64,000 bases of DNA from Akkermansiaceae bacterium (GTDB taxonomy: Bacteria; Verrucomicrobiota; Verrucomicrobiia; Verrucomicrobiales; Akkermansiaceae), in assembly GCA_028822935.1 (NCBI GenBank), contig JAPKCM010000018.1:1-64000 (forward strand), read 5' to 3'. Of the stretch, positions 45,457 through 57,339 are shown one piece after another. A program made the position numbers and the translations under genes. The stretch's first letter is position 1. Every line of letters begins with the position of its first letter. The notes below the pieces were generated by a model. The model was not told the origin of the DNA. It searched no databases and saw only the letters and a program-made list of their open reading frames with translations.

Positions 45457-45557
45457 GAATCAAGATTGTGATCTCTTGGGAGCTTAGAGTGATGGACCCG
45501 GTGAGAGTTCAAAATGTTTTGGTAAAGTGAAGGAATCGTGGGTGCTCCGATCCCGAA

Positions 45558-45572
45558 TTAGAATAATTCCAA
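45558..45572. promoter_or_regulatory. PerR/Fur-box-like operator ahead of the Fur-family gene
   Basis: TTAGAATAATTCCAA is a 7-1-7 inverted repeat with one mismatch, and it matches 14 of 15 positions of the Bacillus PerR box TTAnAATnATTnTAA. The symmetry extends by two more pairs on each side. It lies 46 bases before the regulator's start codon, so autoregulation and control of the following suf genes are likely. Confidence 0.6.
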
Positions 45573-45617
45573 TTTCCGCTTGATCGTGCTCCCAGCATGG
45601 CTAGGTTCCCGCCGTAG

Positions 45618-46046
45618 ATGATTGCGTTTGATCACCATAGCAGCCCAGCACCGGAGGAACTTCCTTCGCTGCTTGAGGGCTTGCGCATGACGAAGCAGCG
45701 CCGGGAGGTGCTCTCGGTCATTCTTGCTGAACGCGATCACCCCACTGCAAATGATGTCTTCACACGCTCGAAAGAGCGGATGCCGACGATCTCGCTCGCG
45801 ACGGTCTATAATTGCCTGGAAGCCCTGGTTTCGCACAAGCTGGTGAAGCAGGTGAACTTCGAGCGCGAGTCATCCCGCTACTGCCCGAACTTGAGTGATC
45901 ACTGCCATTTTCAGGATGAAAAGACCGGGACGATCCACGATGTTGTCTTTAAAAAAGGAGTTAAGCTTGAAGATTTCCTCGAACTCCCTCAAGGCACCGA
46001 AATCAGCCACCTCGAACTCAGCCTGAAGGGCCGGATCGGATACTAA
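45618..46046 (+). CDS. Fur-family metalloregulator, PerR-like
   Basis: 142 residues. The winged helix runs from [17 protein letters not shown] through [20 protein letters not shown] and [19 protein letters not shown]. The metal site is partly kept: the His of HPTA, the pair in SDHCHF and the Asp of TIHDV. The structural zinc CxxC that usually follows HHHFI is replaced here by DxxT (QDEKTG), so this regulator lacks the standard Cys4 site. It is 16 bases before sufC, with a PerR-box-like repeat upstream. The best reading is an iron or peroxide sensor governing the Fe-S assembly genes; a Zur-type role cannot be excluded. Confidence 0.88.
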
Positions 46047-46062: not shown

Positions 46063-46803
46063 ATGAGTCTCACCATCGAAAACCTACACGCCACCGTCGG
46101 TGGAACTCCCATCCTCAAGGGCCTCAATCTGGAAATTCCAGCGGGAGAAGTCCATGCCATCATGGGTCCCAACGGTTCTGGTAAATCCACTCTTTCCAAG
46201 GTCATCGCTGGTCATGAGGACTACGTTGTGACGGATGGAAAAGTTCTCCTTGATGGTGTCGATATCGCCGAACTCGAAGTCGATGAGCGTTCACGTGCCG
46301 GAATTTTTCTCGCCTTCCAGTATCCTGCTGAAGTTCCTGGAGTTTCTAATGCCAACTTCCTTCGGGCGGCTCTACAGGCTCGCATGCCCGACGGCGAAGA
46401 GATCGATGCGGTGGCCTTCTACAAATCGATGTATGCCAAGATGGATGAGCTCGAAATGGACCGCAAGTTCACCAAGCGTGCTGTTAACGAAGGCTTCTCC
46501 GGTGGTGAGAAAAAGCGCAACGAAATCCTTCAGATGATGATGCTCGATCCGCGCTATGCTTTGCTCGATGAGACCGACTCTGGTCTCGATATCGACGCGC
46601 TCAAGGTGGTTGCAAAAGGGGTCAACTCGATGCGTTCTCCGGGCCGCGGCTTCTTGATCATCACCCATTACCAGCGTCTTCTCGACTATATCAAGCCGGA
46701 CGCTGTTCACGTGATGTCCGATGGCCAGATTGTCAAATCCGGCGGTGCCGAACTCGCCCTCGAACTCGAGGAGAGCGGCTACGATTTCCTTAAAACTGCC
46801 TAA
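46063..46803 (+). CDS. sufC: SUF Fe-S cluster assembly ATPase SufC
   Basis: 246 residues, one ABC ATPase domain without membrane segments. Walker [10 protein letters not shown] at 35-43, signature [17 protein letters not shown] and Walker [21 protein letters not shown], which includes the SufC-specific ETDSGLD. SufC powers the SufBCD scaffold that builds Fe-S clusters in the cytoplasm. It is followed by sufB and sufD on the same strand; no cysteine desulfurase SufS or SufE is found in the window, so sulfur delivery must come from elsewhere in the genome. Confidence 0.97.
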
Positions 46804-46818
46804 ATTTTCTACCCGGCC

Positions 46819-46876
46819 TTTAGCTCATAGCTCCGGTCGGCCTGCCACTTAAAACCCTGGAGCTAAATGATAGCTC
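46819..46876 (+). repeat. Nested inverted repeats between sufC and sufB
   Basis: TAGCTC occurs at 46821, 46828 and 46871 and its complement GAGCTA at 46860. GAGCTA-AATGA-TAGCTC (46860-46876) is a perfect hairpin, and TTTAGCTC (46819-46826) can pair instead with GAGCTAAA (46860-46867), so two alternative folds are possible just before sufB. Confidence 0.5.
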
Positions 46877-46902
46877 TGTATTCCTTTGACTCACTTTTTG
46901 AA

Positions 46903-48324
46903 ATGAACTCAGAAACCGCCACCGTCCAGCAAGTCGCTCTTGAGAAAGACAACATCGGAGATTTTTCGTTTCCGGAAAATCATAAATTTGATGCCGGGAC
47001 CGGTCTCAACGGGGATACCCTCGACTACATCTCTAAGGTTAAGGATGAACCGGCTTGGGTGAACGAGTTTCGTCACAAGGCGCTCGCAGTTTTTGAATCC
47101 AAACCGATGCCAACGAACTGGGCGACGGAGGATCTCAACGCGATCGATTTCGATAAAATCCGCTACTACCTTTCTGATGGAGCGACGCCCAAGCGTTCTT
47201 GGGACGACGTGCCTCCTGAGGTTCTTGAAACCTTTGACCGCCTCGGTGTGCCCGAGCAGGAGCGGGCCTTTCTCGCTGGTGTGGAAGCGCAATACGACTC
47301 CGAAGCCGCTTACTCGAACGTCAAGGAAGCGCTCGCTGAAGAAGGCGTGATTTTCGTGACCTGTTCCGAAGGCCTCAAGGAGCACGCAGATATTTTCCGC
47401 CCTTGGTTTGGAAAAGTGATCCCGGTGGGCGACAATAAATTTTCCGCACTGAACTCCGCGGTAATGTCCGGTGGATCCTTCATCTACATTCCAAAAGGAG
47501 TGAAAGTGAAGCACCCGCTACAGGCATACTTCCGCATTAACTCCGAGAACTTTGGTCAGTTTGAGCGCACGCTCATCATCGCCGATGAAGGTTCCGAGGT
47601 CATGTATATGGAAGGCTGCACCGCTCCAAAATTTGAGACGGCCACGCTTCACTCGGCTGTCGTCGAGTTGGTGGCAATGAAGGGGGCTAAGATTCAATAC
47701 ATCACCGTTCAGAATTGGTCCTCCAATGTCTTCAACCTCGTCACGAAGCGTGGCCTGGCACACGAAGACGCCGAGATTCGCTGGATCGATTGTAATATTG
47801 GGTCCCGTCTCACCATGAAATATCCCGGTGTTGTTATGAAAGGGGAGCGCGCTCGTGGCGAAGTGATTTCCATTGCTCTCGCAAACGACGGTCAGCATCA
47901 GGACACCGGTGCGAAAATGATTCACGCCGCGAACAACACGACTTCCAACGTGATCTCCAAGTCGATCTCCATCGGCGCAGGTCGCTCGACTTATCGTGGT
48001 CAGGTTCACATTCCCAAGCACCTCAAGGGCTGTAAGAACAACACCGAATGTGATGCCTTGCTCATCAATCCGAAGAGCCGCACTGATACCTATCCTGCGA
48101 TCTCCGTCAAAGGAAACCAGCACGTCACGCAGCACGAAGCGAGTGTGAGTCAGGTCTCCAAGGAAATGCTCTTCTACATGCAGCAGCGTGGCCTCTCCGA
48201 GACCCAGGCGATGTCGCTCGCGGTGAATGGTTTTATCAACGACCTCGTCGAAGAATTCCCGATGGAATACTCGGTCGAACTCAAGCGCCTCATCGATCTC
48301 GAGATGGAAGGCTCGGTTGGTTAA
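46903..48324 (+). CDS. sufB: SUF scaffold protein SufB
   Basis: 473 residues from ATG 46903 ([18 protein letters not shown]). SufB blocks are clear: [76 protein letters not shown] and [19 protein letters not shown]. It is the site where Fe-S clusters form, together with SufC and SufD. In-frame ATG 46867 lies within the upstream inverted repeats and is not part of the family N-terminus. It is the second gene of the sufCBD set. Confidence 0.97.
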
Positions 48325-48340: not shown

Positions 48341-49483
48341 ATGTCCGCAACTCTCACGTCTCCTGCACTCGAGAAATTCGAGGCTCTCAAATGGCCCGTT
48401 CGCACGGTGGAAAACTGGCGCTTTGGTGCCTGGAAAGAAGCAAATCTTTCCGGGGTCGAACCCATCGGATATGGCACTGCTGCAGATCTCCCTGCTGAGA
48501 TCGAAGGCGCGACCCGCTTCGTGTTTCAGAATGCCGAGCTTGTCTCTGGTTCTCATGATTCCGTGACCCTTCTCAGCGAGTCCTTTGGACCTGAGTCTCG
48601 TCTTGGTTCTCCAAAACTTGCTGCGCTTCACTCGGTTCAGTCAGATCATGGCATTTCCATCACCGCTTCTGGTAAAGAGATCATCGAAATCATTCATCTC
48701 GTTACTGGTGAAGGTCTCCTTCTCCCTAGCCTTGTCATTAATGCCGAGGCCGGCGCGAAGCTTCGAGTGATCCAACGTTTCGTCTCGACTGATGACGCGG
48801 CTGCTGTCGTTCTCACGGCTGTTGATGTGAACGTCGGCGAAAAGGCCGAGGTCAAATATCTCGTTACTCAGGAGCTTAATCGCGCCAGTAGGTTCATTCG
48901 TATTGCTGATTCCTGTCTCCAGACTGGCGCGAGTGCCAAGCAAGCGGTCATTCACACGGGCTCGAAGTGGCTTCGTGAAGAAACCTATTCTACGCTCGAT
49001 GGATCCGATAGCCAATCCCACATCCTCTCGGTCGCTCTTCCTGACACGGGTCAGGAGTTCGACCAGCGCACCTTCCAGCACCACGGAGCGCGCGACACCT
49101 ACTCTGATCTCCTTTTCAAGAACACGCTCTTTGGAAAAGGGAAGACGATTTTTTCAGGTCTCATCTTCGTTGATGAAGGCGCCCACGGAACTGATGCCTA
49201 CCAGACTTGTCGCAATCTTATGATGTCCGATGACTGCGAAGCGCACTCCATGCCTGGTCTCGAGATCAATGCGGACGACGTGAAGTGCTCGCACGGTTCG
49301 ACCAGTGCGCGCGTGAGTGATGAAGAAATTTTCTACCTCATGGCTCGCGGCATCCAGCCCAAGCTGGCTCGTAGTCTCGTGGCGCAGGGATTCTCTGCGG
49401 AAGCGGTTGAAAAGCTGGAGGACGGAACCCTTGAAACCCTCGCGATCGAAGTGATCGAGCGGAAGTTCCAGGCGGTTGATTAA
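48341..49483 (+). CDS. sufD: SUF assembly protein SufD
   Basis: 380 residues, right-handed beta-helix paralogue of SufB. TVENWRFGAWKEANLSG near the start is the conserved SufD N-terminal block; VDEGAHGTDAYQTCRNLMM and KCSHGSTSARVSDEEIFYLM near the C-terminus are typical, with the conserved His in CSHG. It binds SufB and SufC and is needed for iron acquisition by the complex. It starts 16 bases after sufB. The order C-B-D is regular. Confidence 0.93.
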   Translation: MSATLTSPALEKFEALKWPVRTVENWRFGAWKEANLSGVEPIGYGTAADLPAEIEGATRFVFQNAELVSGSHDSVTLLSESFGPESRLGSPKLAALHSVQSDHGISITASGKEIIEIIHLVTGEGLLLPSLVINAEAGAKLRVIQRFVSTDDAAAVVLTAVDVNVGEKAEVKYLVTQELNRASRFIRIADSCLQTGASAKQAVIHTGSKWLREETYSTLDGSDSQSHILSVALPDTGQEFDQRTFQHHGARDTYSDLLFKNTLFGKGKTIFSGLIFVDEGAHGTDAYQTCRNLMMSDDCEAHSMPGLEINADDVKCSHGSTSARVSDEEIFYLMARGIQPKLARSLVAQGFSAEAVEKLEDGTLETLAIEVIERKFQAVD

Positions 49484-49511
49484 GTTGAGGAAAACGCCTT
49501 GGTTGGCGTTT

Positions 49512-49781
49512 ATGAGGATGATTGGAATTTTCGAGGCAAAGACGCATTTGCCGACTGTCTGCGACCAAGTGGTCGCTTCTGGTCAGTCAATTACGATCCC
49601 TCGTCGTGGGAAACCACTCGTCGTCATTTCCCGTGTTTCTCCAGAAAAAGGCGACCGAGAGGGGATACTGACGGCTCTAAAACAGTGGAATGCTGGGAAA
49701 AAGGAGTCCGATGAACCGGATTTCCCGGACGTTTGGGAGGATCGGACCAGCTCAGGGGAACATTCACCTCTTGAAGATTGA
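49512..49781 (+). CDS. Phd/YefM-type antitoxin
   Basis: 89 residues from ATG 49512. MIGIFEAKTHLPTVCDQV and SGQSITIPRRGKPLVVI is the Phd/YefM N-terminal DNA-binding fold; the C-terminal part (KKESDEPDFPDVWEDRTS) is acidic and disordered and would wrap the toxin. The stop overlaps the toxin start. It begins 28 bases after sufD but is unlikely to be functionally tied to it. A second in-frame ATG is two codons downstream. A short stretch near 33.6 kb matches its 3' end, which suggests a lost second copy. Confidence 0.87.
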   Translation: MRMIGIFEAKTHLPTVCDQVVASGQSITIPRRGKPLVVISRVSPEKGDREGILTALKQWNAGKKESDEPDFPDVWEDRTSSGEHSPLED

Positions 49782-50185
49782 TGGGCTGGCTCCTTGATAC
49801 ATCGATCTATTCCCAGGTCCTCAAAAAACGACCTATTCTAGAGTGTCTGAGGAAGTGGGAAGAGATGGGCGATGCGCAATGTGTCGTCTCGGCGGTTTGC
49901 CTTGCGCAGGTCGAATGGGGCCTAAATTACGCTGCCAATGAAAGGCTATGGGAACGATATCGTGAGTTGCTAGAAGGACGACTGGAGGTCCTTGATGTTA
50001 CCACGGTGACATGGAGACATTTTTCACGAATGAAGGCCCGCCAGCGATTGATTGGCCAGGCAGTTGGAGACCTCGATCTCTTAATAGCGGCTTCTGCGGT
50101 GGAGCATGGGCTTAGCGTTGCGACCCTGAATAAGCAGGATTTTTCTAGGATCGAAGGTGTCTCTTGGGAGGATTGGGCGATTTAA
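49781..50185 (+). CDS. PIN-domain (VapC-type) toxin
   Basis: 134 residues from ATG 49781, overlapping the antitoxin stop as TGATG. The PIN domain acidic residues are visible: WLLDTSIYSQ at the start, AVCLAQVEWGLNYA in the middle, GDLDLLIAASAVEHGL and TLNKQDFSRI at the end. Such proteins are Mg-dependent RNases that attack tRNA or rRNA and are neutralised by the paired antitoxin. The pair mixes a Phd-type antitoxin with a VapC-type toxin, which is common. Confidence 0.9.
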   Translation: MGWLLDTSIYSQVLKKRPILECLRKWEEMGDAQCVVSAVCLAQVEWGLNYAANERLWERYRELLEGRLEVLDVTTVTWRHFSRMKARQRLIGQAVGDLDLLIAASAVEHGLSVATLNKQDFSRIEGVSWEDWAI

Positions 50186-55011: not shown

Positions 55012-57339
55012 ATGATCAGCAAGCAAATCAACACTGCATGGGCTCTGCTCATCGCGCTTGTGCTTCTGCCGATTATGGCGGCAGCTTCCGGCTTCGAGGA
55101 GGTAGTGCAGCCTTACCTGAAGGAGAACTGTATTCGTTGCCACGGGCCGGAGAAGCAGAAAGGCAAGCTGACCCTCCATCAGATCACCGAGCACTTTGGC
55201 ACCGACGCGGAAGTTGAGGGATGGGTCGATATTCTGGACATGCTTTCGTTTGGGGAAATGCCGCCACCGGACGAGGAAAAACAACCGGATCCGCTTGCGA
55301 CAGCCCAGATCGTTAGCTGGATCAAGCAGAAGCTTCAAGAGGCGGGTAAAGCGGAAGCCTATCTGAAGAAACTCTTGGCACCCGAATACGGGAATTGGGT
55401 CAGCCACGAAAAACTGTTCTCGGGGGAAATCAACACGCTTCCATTTTCGCCGTCCCGTTTGTGGCGATTGAGCCCCGAAATCTTCAAGCATCAAGGATTT
55501 GGTCGCGCTCGAAGTCCCTTCACTTATGTCACTCCAGAATCGGGAATTCGCGACTATGCGACGATGTCAGCGGTTGACCAAAGCACGGTGCAGATGATCC
55601 TCATCAACGCGGGTCAATATCTCGAGGGTCGTGAGCAGGGAGGTGACTTCAAACGTTTTGCAGAAGATCAACCAAGGCCCTCGGATCAGGTCCTCTCCGA
55701 CACCGTCCGGGCTGAATTTCGGAGAGTGATCGGACGAGAGGCGAACCCGCAGGAACTTTCCAAATATCTCGGGTTCCTCCTGAAAAACATCGAGATCGGT
55801 GGTAATCTGGATGGTCTCAACACGACAATCAAGACGATGTTCCTGAGCCCCGAGGCGATCTACCGGATGGAATTCGGCCTTGGAGAAAAGGACCAATACG
55901 GCCGCCGTCATCTTTCGCCCCAAGAGATCGCTTACACCATTTCCTACGCCTTAACCGACCGGGGGCCTGAACACCTCCCGGCCATCAGGAAGGCCTTGGC
56001 GGAAGGGAAACTGACCAAAAAGAAAGATGTCGCCCGGGTCCTCCGGGAAGTGCTTGATGAGGAACTCGCAACGGGGCACTGGGCCCATCGTAATCTCCCT
56101 CGCATCATGCGCTTCTTCGACGAATTTTTTGGATTCGACCGGGCCGGCAGCGTGTTCAAGGACAACGAGCGAATACGCAGCGAAGGAATCCCTCAATGGA
56201 ATACCGAAATGCTGATCCACGATGCGCGCATGCTCATCGAACATCACCTCAGAAGTGATCAGGACGTCATCGCCAATCTCTTGACGACCGATCACTACTT
56301 CGTTGCGCACCCCGGTAACAATCAGTTTGCGCGTGAGTTCTATGAGGAGAGGATCACCGAATACACCGCATCGGAATATGTCAGCGATCAAGTCGCCAAG
56401 AAAAAAGAACAGCTGGATAGGGAGCAGAAAGAATGGAACTACTCGTCAGAGGAACGTAAAAAACGCCTCGACGAGGCGAGTAAGCGCGCGGAACTTAAAG
56501 TCACCCATGTGAAGACTGCGATGAAAAATGGCCTCAACCCACACCCGAACTTCCCCTTTTCGAAACGCTCTCGTGGGATCGCAGACTTGATCTACATCGA
56601 ACCTTACAATCTGCCCAGCAGTGGCGGGGGCTCTCTTCAACGCTGGAAGTGGCCGATCGAACAACCTTTCGAGATGCCTAAAGGCCAGCGTGCCGGTTTG
56701 CTGACACATCCGGCCTGGCTCGCCACCCACTCGCTGAATGAGGGCAACGATCCAATTCGTCGGGGCATTTGGATCCGTGAGAAACTGCTCGCCGGAGTGA
56801 TTAAGGACGTCCCCCCGGACGTCGATGCCAATGTGCCGCCGGATCCTCACAAAACCCTGCGTGAACGACTCGACATTCTACGGGCCGAACGTTGTTGGAC
56901 CTGCCACCGCAAGATCAACCCGCTTGGCGAGGCCTTTGAAATCTTCGACGACTGGGGGCGCTATCGAACCCACGTCTATTTCGATGAAGAAAAGAAACTC
57001 CTTACCCGCCGGGATGCAGCCTTCGACAAAATGCTCGAAAAGGGCACACTGACTGCTCACTCGATCAACGCGTCCGGAGCCATCACGGGATCAGGAAATC
57101 CCAAGGTCGATGGTGAAGTGAAGGACGCGATCGAACTGATGCATCGCTTGGGCCGCTCCGACCGTGCGAGACAATCTTTCATTCGCTATTTGTTCCGATA
57201 CTTTATGGGAAGAAACGAAATGCTCAGTGATTCAAAAACCCTAATCGAGGCAGAGAAAGCATACCAGGATAACGGAGGAAGCTTTAAGGCGCTCGTCGTC
57301 TCGTTGTTGAGTTCAGACTCGTTTCTCTACCGCCGCTAA
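55012..57339 (+). CDS. DUF1592/DUF1588 cytochrome c protein, divergent
   Basis: 775 residues with a signal peptide (WALLIALVLLPIMAAASG). The planctomycete-type cytochrome domain holds CIRCH at 40-44. It then has a long region matching DUF1592 (HLSPQEIAYTISYALTDRG, RIMRFFDEFFGFDRAGSVF) and DUF1588 (GLLTHPAWLATHSLNEGNDP, RGIWIREKLLAG, CWTCHRKINPLGEAFE) and a DUF1585-like tail ending in LLSSDSFLYRR. The DUF1587 and DUF1595 parts seen in the second copy are missing or unrecognisable here, and the middle contains an extra charged stretch (KKKEQLDREQKEWNYSSEE). Probably heme-binding and periplasmic; followed by its DUF1552 partner after 20 bases. Confidence 0.86.
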   Translation: MISKQINTAWALLIALVLLPIMAAASGFEEVVQPYLKENCIRCHGPEKQKGKLTLHQITEHFGTDAEVEGWVDILDMLSFGEMPPPDEEKQPDPLATAQIVSWIKQKLQEAGKAEAYLKKLLAPEYGNWVSHEKLFSGEINTLPFSPSRLWRLSPEIFKHQGFGRARSPFTYVTPESGIRDYATMSAVDQSTVQMILINAGQYLEGREQGGDFKRFAEDQPRPSDQVLSDTVRAEFRRVIGREANPQELSKYLGFLLKNIEIGGNLDGLNTTIKTMFLSPEAIYRMEFGLGEKDQYGRRHLSPQEIAYTISYALTDRGPEHLPAIRKALAEGKLTKKKDVARVLREVLDEELATGHWAHRNLPRIMRFFDEFFGFDRAGSVFKDNERIRSEGIPQWNTEMLIHDARMLIEHHLRSDQDVIANLLTTDHYFVAHPGNNQFAREFYEERITEYTASEYVSDQVAKKKEQLDREQKEWNYSSEERKKRLDEASKRAELKVTHVKTAMKNGLNPHPNFPFSKRSRGIADLIYIEPYNLPSSGGGSLQRWKWPIEQPFEMPKGQRAGLLTHPAWLATHSLNEGNDPIRRGIWIREKLLAGVIKDVPPDVDANVPPDPHKTLRERLDILRAERCWTCHRKINPLGEAFEIFDDWGRYRTHVYFDEEKKLLTRRDAAFDKMLEKGTLTAHSINASGAITGSGNPKVDGEVKDAIELMHRLGRSDRARQSFIRYLFRYFMGRNEMLSDSKTLIEAEKAYQDNGGSFKALVVSLLSSDSFLYRR

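Follow-up and report, generated by a model that had tools for sequence, protein, structure and literature searches.

The window, i.e., the whole stretch of 64,000 nucleotides analyzed here, contains a forward-strand cluster in which a PerR-like Fur-family regulator of 142 amino acids (45618–46046) is followed by sufC (46063–46803), sufB (46867–48324) and a sufD-like gene (48341–49483). A first-pass annotation, made from the sequence alone, had described a Fur-family regulator leading sufCBD, and the profile matches bear this out. The regulator matches Pfam FUR (PF01475) with 81.3 bits against a cut-off of 23.1, which places it in the Fur superfamily, and the sufC and sufB products reach 356 bits with TIGR01978 (cut-off 212.8) and 599.8 bits with TIGR01980 (cut-off 346.4), respectively. 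The sufD-like product falls just under the cut-off of TIGR01981 (215 versus 222 bits) and scores 212.3 bits with Pfam SUFBD_core (cut-off 27). The sufB coordinates begin at the first ATG of the ORF, and the true start may instead be a later in-frame ATG. Directly after sufD lies a toxin–antitoxin-like pair (49494–50185) that combines a Phd/YefM-type protein (29.4 bits, just under the cut-off of 29.8) with a PIN domain, and an ORF at 55012–57339 carries planctomycete-type cytochrome and PSD domains (PF07635, PF07627, PF07624).

Upstream of the regulator is a 19-bp near-palindrome, AATTAGAATAATTCCAATT (45556–45574, no strand assigned), which we treat as a putative operator. The operator is the 19-bp palindrome AATTnGAATnATTCnAATT centered at 45565, and a 15-mer (45558–45572) forms its core, with 45 bases between the end of the 15-mer and the ATG of the regulator. 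The palindrome had been noted to extend past the 15-mer, which is borne out by the full 19 bp and by its conservation before orthologues described below. The resemblance of the 15-mer to the Bacillus PerR box, given earlier as 14 of 15 consensus positions, was overstated: TTAGAATAATTCCAA has three mismatches to the consensus TTATAATNATTATAA as printed in PMC11631912, and thus agrees at 11 of the 14 defined positions. A match at this three-mismatch stringency is present in 28 of 100 shuffled windows, so that likeness to the Bacillus PerR box alone proves little, and it was rejected as stand-alone evidence. The operator's own symmetrical form, AATTNGAATNATTCNAATT, is matched without mismatch; 0.01 matches to it are expected in the window at two or fewer mismatches, and the operator is the sole zero-mismatch site across the 4.59-Mb genome. 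An inverted-repeat finder at its settings did not report the site. Judged at the sequence level, by its exact symmetry, its uniqueness in the genome and its conservation before orthologues, the operator is more than a chance palindrome.

Conservation was assessed in a protein search of 58 genomes, the window's own included, which returned a match in 57. Fifty-two of these, with E 1.4e-27 or better, were judged to be one and the same gene (the remainder lie at E 8.7e-4 to 1.1e-9), and 50 of the 52 loci were examined, 30 from the window's family and 20 from elsewhere in the order. The core box TTAGAATNRTTCYWR, a pattern drawn from the loci on which it was scored, precedes the orthologous regulator at 13–14 of 14 positions in all 50 (43 at 14 and seven at 13), and a sufC motif follows the regulator in 48, the contig ending first in the other two. 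G045 and G049, which stand outside the count of 50, both show an exact box at the expected place. Among 80 loci from named genomes, which are mostly Akkermansiaceae and other Verrucomicrobia and partly repeat genomes or species of the 58-genome set, all 80 have the box at 13–14 and 79 have sufC. At the class level, 15 of 20 loci carry the box at 13–14 and 17 have sufC downstream by reading; the exceptions include L269, with sufB further on, and L258, where no suf gene was seen.

The box has changed in one genus of the window's family (g3), where 11 loci reach only 11 of 14 positions and share the form AA[TG]AAC[AC]GGAATTGTTCTT; co-evolution of protein and site is a possible explanation. At these loci (L185–L187 and L190–L197) the box is now AACAGGAATTGTTCTT-like, with the regulator and sufC still in place. 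Elsewhere, two tandem box-like palindromes precede the regulator at L047, and at L116, L133 and L150 the regulator and sufC are separated by an ORF of roughly 100 residues that looks membrane-like to the eye.

Regulator and box are jointly present or jointly absent in most genomes. Twenty further genomes have sufC but, at a threshold of E 1e-22, no regulator of the kind, and in 18 of them the best box before sufC scores 11 of 14 or less (1.4 kb upstream of sufC was scanned; about 0.3 kb in L314). The other two retain a box with no regulator in the assembly, at 13 positions in L302 (genome G331) and at 14 in L313 (G328), which argues against strict pairing. Four genomes of the window's genus are without both the regulator and sufC, so this gap is probably one of assembly.

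A promoter is predicted just downstream of the operator, consisting of TTGATC, a 16-base spacer and TAGGTT (45580–45607, forward strand), and the motif recurs in the loci of relatives. A search with TTGN3-N15/18-TAN3T, in which every match had a 16-base spacer (TTGN3-N16-TAN3T), located the pattern 3′ of the box in 35 of 50 loci, including 30 of 30 in the window's family, compared with two of 50 reversed control stretches of somewhat different length; a generic promoter scan gave no promoter at its threshold. Two registers were observed, about one helical turn apart. The first hexamer starts five bases past the box center in seven loci, overlapping the right half-site, and 14–16 bases past it in 28 loci, the window included. 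The overlap of box and −35 element in the seven loci argues for repression, and the window's register, with the box upstream of the −35 element, would be compatible with both repression and activation. Only 10 bases separate the end of the predicted −10 element (45602–45607) from the ATG, so that the operon may be transcribed into a nearly leaderless mRNA; among relatives of the window's genus, the distance from −10 to ATG is similar.

FUR is the only Pfam family matched by the regulator, which is therefore not an Rrf2 protein such as IscR. The single Rrf2 match in the window's genome scores 47.7 against the IscR cut-off of 207.55 and was rejected as an IscR by this score, so that the PerR-like regulator is left as the evident local controller of suf. 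This fits the earlier proposal that the regulator takes the role played by IscR in other bacteria. The nearest solved relative by sequence in the PDB is B. subtilis PerR, and in the alignment its ligands His37, Asp85, His91, His93 and Asp104 correspond to His41, Cys89, His95, His97 and Asp108, the predicted ligands of the window protein. Four of the five PerR ligands are therefore kept, as the first-pass annotation had partly recognized in speaking of retained metal ligands, but it missed the cysteine at the Asp85 position. Because Asp85 is replaced by Cys, the metal site is not a PerR site. The DxxT reported in place of the CxxC was recovered as D-E-K-T at residues 100–103, where the first CxxC would lie. 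Asn65 and Asp108 align with Asn61 and Asp104, the canonical PerR residues (PMC8638851). A combination of these PerR marks with one Zur ligand was not found in the Fur-family literature searched, as far as its accessible parts go.

The ligand pattern is strongly conserved. Among 145 distinct ortholog cores, which include loci of the same species group and are biased in that one of the two peptide search patterns contains the Cys and the search profile derives from Cys proteins, His41, Cys89, His97, Asp108 and Asn65 are each present in 145, His95 in 144 and Pro90 in 118. Cys89 is the only invariant cysteine across the orthologs. The query of the 58-genome search carried the Cys and the search did not require it; all 50 loci have it. 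All 19 outgroup proteins have Asp at position 89, and all 19 also have the first cysteine pair; as the CxxC occurs in only 20 of 145 orthologs, it was probably lost within the clade. A phylum sample of 288 genomes, searched with a profile built from Cys proteins, gave 99 matches at E 1e-22 or better, which separate into 73 genomes at E 8.8e-39 or better and 26 at 8.5e-28 or worse. Nineteen of the 26 lower-scoring proteins were inspected, with Asp in all 19. Within the class, as counted by kinship, 75 of 94 genomes match, two of which (G204 and G230) are of the Asp type, and the 73 others fall in the score range of the Cys type (E 8.8e-39 or better), with Cys in all 50 inspected. No sufC or sufB motif was found at the Asp-type loci in 19 of 19 fetched stretches (1.8–3.6 kb each). 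Upstream of three Asp-type PerR-like genes of the phylum (L292, L293 and L294) are AT-rich palindromes, e.g., GTAATAATTATTAC, nearer the classical PerR box.

How the regulator relates to the known members of its superfamily was judged from residues, profiles, structure and phylogeny. Fur proper is marked by Arg and Glu at the positions of PerR Asn61 and Asp104, at which the regulator has Asn and Asp; read from the alignment, a paralog (L001) does carry this Arg and Glu. Fold comparison was rejected as a discriminator, since the AlphaFold model (mean pLDDT 87.5) matches Mur, Fur and PerR structures at Z 12.6–13.4 and Zur structures at Z 11.0–12.2, an overall range of 11.0–13.4 that does not separate the four. 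In a tree of 70 rows, 41 Cys proteins fall on one branch (SH-aLRT 94, short of 95), which is placed among Asp-type PerR-like proteins and apart from the Zur rows (root); this is a quick tree with many deep forks open and several long reference branches.

The regulator could be an ordinary PerR with an Fe(II) site, in which hydrogen peroxide oxidizes a histidine, suf belongs to a peroxide regulon and the Cys is merely tolerated. Such a reading would account for Asn65 and Asp108, for PerR as the nearest solved relative and for the exact boxes at dps and a peroxiredoxin in three relatives, and PerR-type proteins without the structural CxxC, PerRA and PerRB, are known in Leptospira (PMC8638851). 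The Cys in place of Asp85 in 145 of 145 cores speaks against it, as do the best NCBIfam PerR score, far from its cut-off (72.5 versus 180 bits), and the lack of a second exact box in the window's genome. We regard this explanation as unlikely, while granting it some weight.

Cys89 invites comparison with Zur, where Cys84 replaces PerR Asp85 as a sensing ligand (PMC4866751) and where this cysteine is essential in the E. coli and S. coelicolor proteins (PMC4219657, PMC6103462). Under a zinc-sensor model, Cys89, His95 and His97 would bind Zn(II) and suf would answer to zinc; the C-x5-H-x-H spacing of S. coelicolor Zur is the same as in the window protein. Zur is reported to have no conserved equivalent of His37 (PMC4866751), but His41 is kept in 145 of 145 cores. 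Further, the family profile scores PerR at 85.8 bits and the Zur chains at 52.4 and 43.3, the tree puts the Cys clade among PerR-like rows, a different paralog (L003) has Zur as its nearest PDB relative, and no zinc-uptake gene was seen beside those exact boxes whose context was read. Zinc sensing is thus improbable.

That the regulator leads an Fe-S assembly operon, and would autoregulate it, in a genome whose one Rrf2 protein is no IscR by score, could also point to a sensor that works like IscR or SufR, with an Fe-S cluster held by Cys89 and histidines. E. coli Fur has been reported to bind [2Fe-2S] (PMC12538065), but it does so through a CxxC (site 3) that the window protein lacks, for which reason binding of this kind was rejected. 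With a single invariant Cys in the orthologs, we consider cluster sensing quite improbable.

Least probable of these explanations is an Irr-like response to haem, in which the apo protein would bind the box and haem at Cys89-Pro90 would relieve it. Some relatives carry TTTAGAANNNTTCTAAA, which corresponds to the Irr iron control element, and NCBIfam Irr models match the regulator at 66.4 and 65.9 bits, but the respective cut-offs are 150 and 170. Pro90 is found in only 118 of 145 cores, and the Cys-Pro haem motif was rejected on this ground. Irr binds DNA without metal (PMC7762939), but a potential metal ligand occurs at all five PerR-type positions in at least 144 of 145 cores, as expected for a metal sensor. 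With a defining PerR ligand replaced and the curated cut-offs unreached, the regulator is not to be filed as PerR, nor should it be filed as Zur, Fur or Irr.

Possible targets beyond suf were examined with the same box. The first-pass annotation had made its proposed regulon depend on other copies in the genome, and the window's genome has no second exact copy. With the core pattern at one or fewer mismatches there are seven sites, compared with seven in the reversed control, so a wide regulon is not supported in the window's genome; 21 sites versus nine in the control at three or fewer mismatches to the 19-bp form leave room for weaker sites. For these near sites, flanking ORFs were read at L087 and ORF lengths at L084, L085, L086, L088, L089 and L036. 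Queries with dps and peroxiredoxin found no match in this genome, and no peroxide-defence regulon was seen in it.

Across the 58 genomes, the exact core occurs at 58 distinct sites, 45 of which are the suf site and 13 lie elsewhere; since the reversed pattern yields 32, non-suf boxes are not enriched as a class. The genes next to the 13 boxes were named by eye, except for the Ferritin and AhpC-TSA domain matches that identify dps and peroxiredoxin. They are dps (G037 and G031), a 2-Cys peroxiredoxin (G034), a separate (split) sufB (G054), a sigma-70-like gene (G033), the start of a SelO-like gene (G025) and the vicinity of a Fur paralog (G038); the G005 box is the suf site again, at the edge of a contig, and another five (G028, G009, G030, G056 and G049) seemed unclear or due to chance. 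As a rough judgement, with gene classes picked post hoc, four of 12 boxes at peroxide or Fe-S genes is far above the expected upstream share. The exact box was found at two of 18 dps places and one of 23 peroxiredoxin places, with one more of the latter at 13 (G024); since both queries were taken from genes with a box and G031 had been identified before, only G024 is independent. A Dps gene lies inside the regulator–suf cluster itself at L177 (G032), between sufC and sufB and with 165.9 bits against a Dps cut-off of 114, and at L180 (G300), so that operon structure, too, links iron storage or peroxide defence to Fe-S assembly. The earlier suggestion of a peroxide or iron link to Fe-S assembly is therefore probably right, given exact boxes apart from the main suf site at dps, peroxiredoxin and sufB in four of 58 genomes and Dps within the suf cluster of two, although the metal site, with Cys for Asp85, is not that of PerR.

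The reading we favor, with confidence somewhat above even, is that the regulator acts as a metal-dependent, probably Fe(II)-dependent, PerR-like repressor of its own sufCBD operon, from which iron shortage or oxidation would release it. The conserved operator, the synteny, the family and fold, the ligand pattern and the joint presence or absence of regulator and box in most genomes are observations; the dimeric state, the metal, the signal, the oxidized residue and the preference for repression over activation are what we infer. A dimeric regulator would bind metal, most likely Fe(II), through His41, Cys89, His95, His97 and Asp108, adopt a closed shape and bind the 19-bp palindrome, which overlaps the −35 box of the predicted regulator–suf promoter or lies right next to it. 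Scarcity of Fe(II) or oxidation of the site (at a histidine as in PerR, or at the Cys) would release the protein and raise suf expression, until freshly synthesized regulator closes the operon down once more. Control of dps and a peroxiredoxin by this box is probable, too, in some relatives.

The repressor reading draws support from the box upstream of the regulator at all 50 loci, 48 of them with sufC next, from the poor boxes (11 of 14 or less) in 18 of 20 sufC-bearing genomes without the regulator, from the S. mutans precedent of PerR acting on sufCDSUB, from the exact boxes at dps, peroxiredoxin and split sufB, and from Asn65 and Asp108 in 145 of 145 cores. Against it count the Zur ligand Cys at the Asp85 position, the two box-keeping genomes with no regulator detected, the non-suf boxes that do not exceed the reversed control (13 versus 32), and the low number of dps (two of 18) and peroxiredoxin (two of 23) places with a box of at least 13.

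It is also conceivable, although we hold it with less confidence, that the regulator represents a separate class of Fur-family sensor, widespread in one bacterial class and dedicated to Fe-S assembly in the place of IscR. Its site would hold mononuclear iron with a single thiolate (His3-Cys-Asp), and this thiolate would determine the choice of metal or be the target of oxidants. If so, the chemistry would differ both from the histidine oxidation of PerR and from the zinc chemistry of Zur.

A small number of ligands are believed to decide which metal a Fur-family protein takes. Here a PerR site with one ligand swapped for the Zur cysteine and the rest kept is found in many genera, nearly always before suf, and the Cys89 clade thus offers a natural test of Asp85 versus Cys in metal choice and peroxide sensing. 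This Cys-variant regulator, with its own conserved box before the suf genes in much of one bacterial class, probably raises suf expression under iron shortage or on exposure to oxidants. It may explain how Fe-S assembly is adjusted in these bacteria, or at any rate in the present one, which has no recognizable IscR.

A link between PerR and suf is itself not new: in Streptococcus mutans, sufCDSUB is repressed by a PerR that uses iron as its cofactor (PMC11631912). That protein is the sole Fur-family regulator of its cell and suf is one of its several targets (PMC11631912), whereas the regulator described here is the first gene of the suf cluster, has one exact site and carries a thiolate among its predicted sensing ligands. 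No report of a Fur-family regulator of suf in Verrucomicrobia was found among the titles and opening abstract lines of the open literature. Leptospira PerR (5nl9) has the D-E-K-T-G stretch in common with the window protein, but PerRA and PerRB differ from it in their normal Asp ligand; suf is not mentioned in the available text of PMC8638851. Zur proteins (3mwm, 2o03, 4mtd) share the cysteine at the position of PerR Asp85, but are without a conserved His37 equivalent (PMC4866751) and less similar to the window protein in sequence. B. subtilis PerR (2fe3, 3f8n) has in common with it the fold, the residues Asn61 and Asp104, four of the five regulatory ligands and a box of the 7-1-7 type, and differs from it in that here Asp85 is Cys, the CxxC is absent, the box agrees at 11 of 14 positions and the genome has one exact site. 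IscR and SufR are regulators that control adjacent Fe-S assembly genes, belong to other protein families and bind a cluster. The window protein resembles them in its genetic role beside Fe-S assembly genes and not in family; it would act as a PerR-like local switch that occupies the genetic position of IscR.
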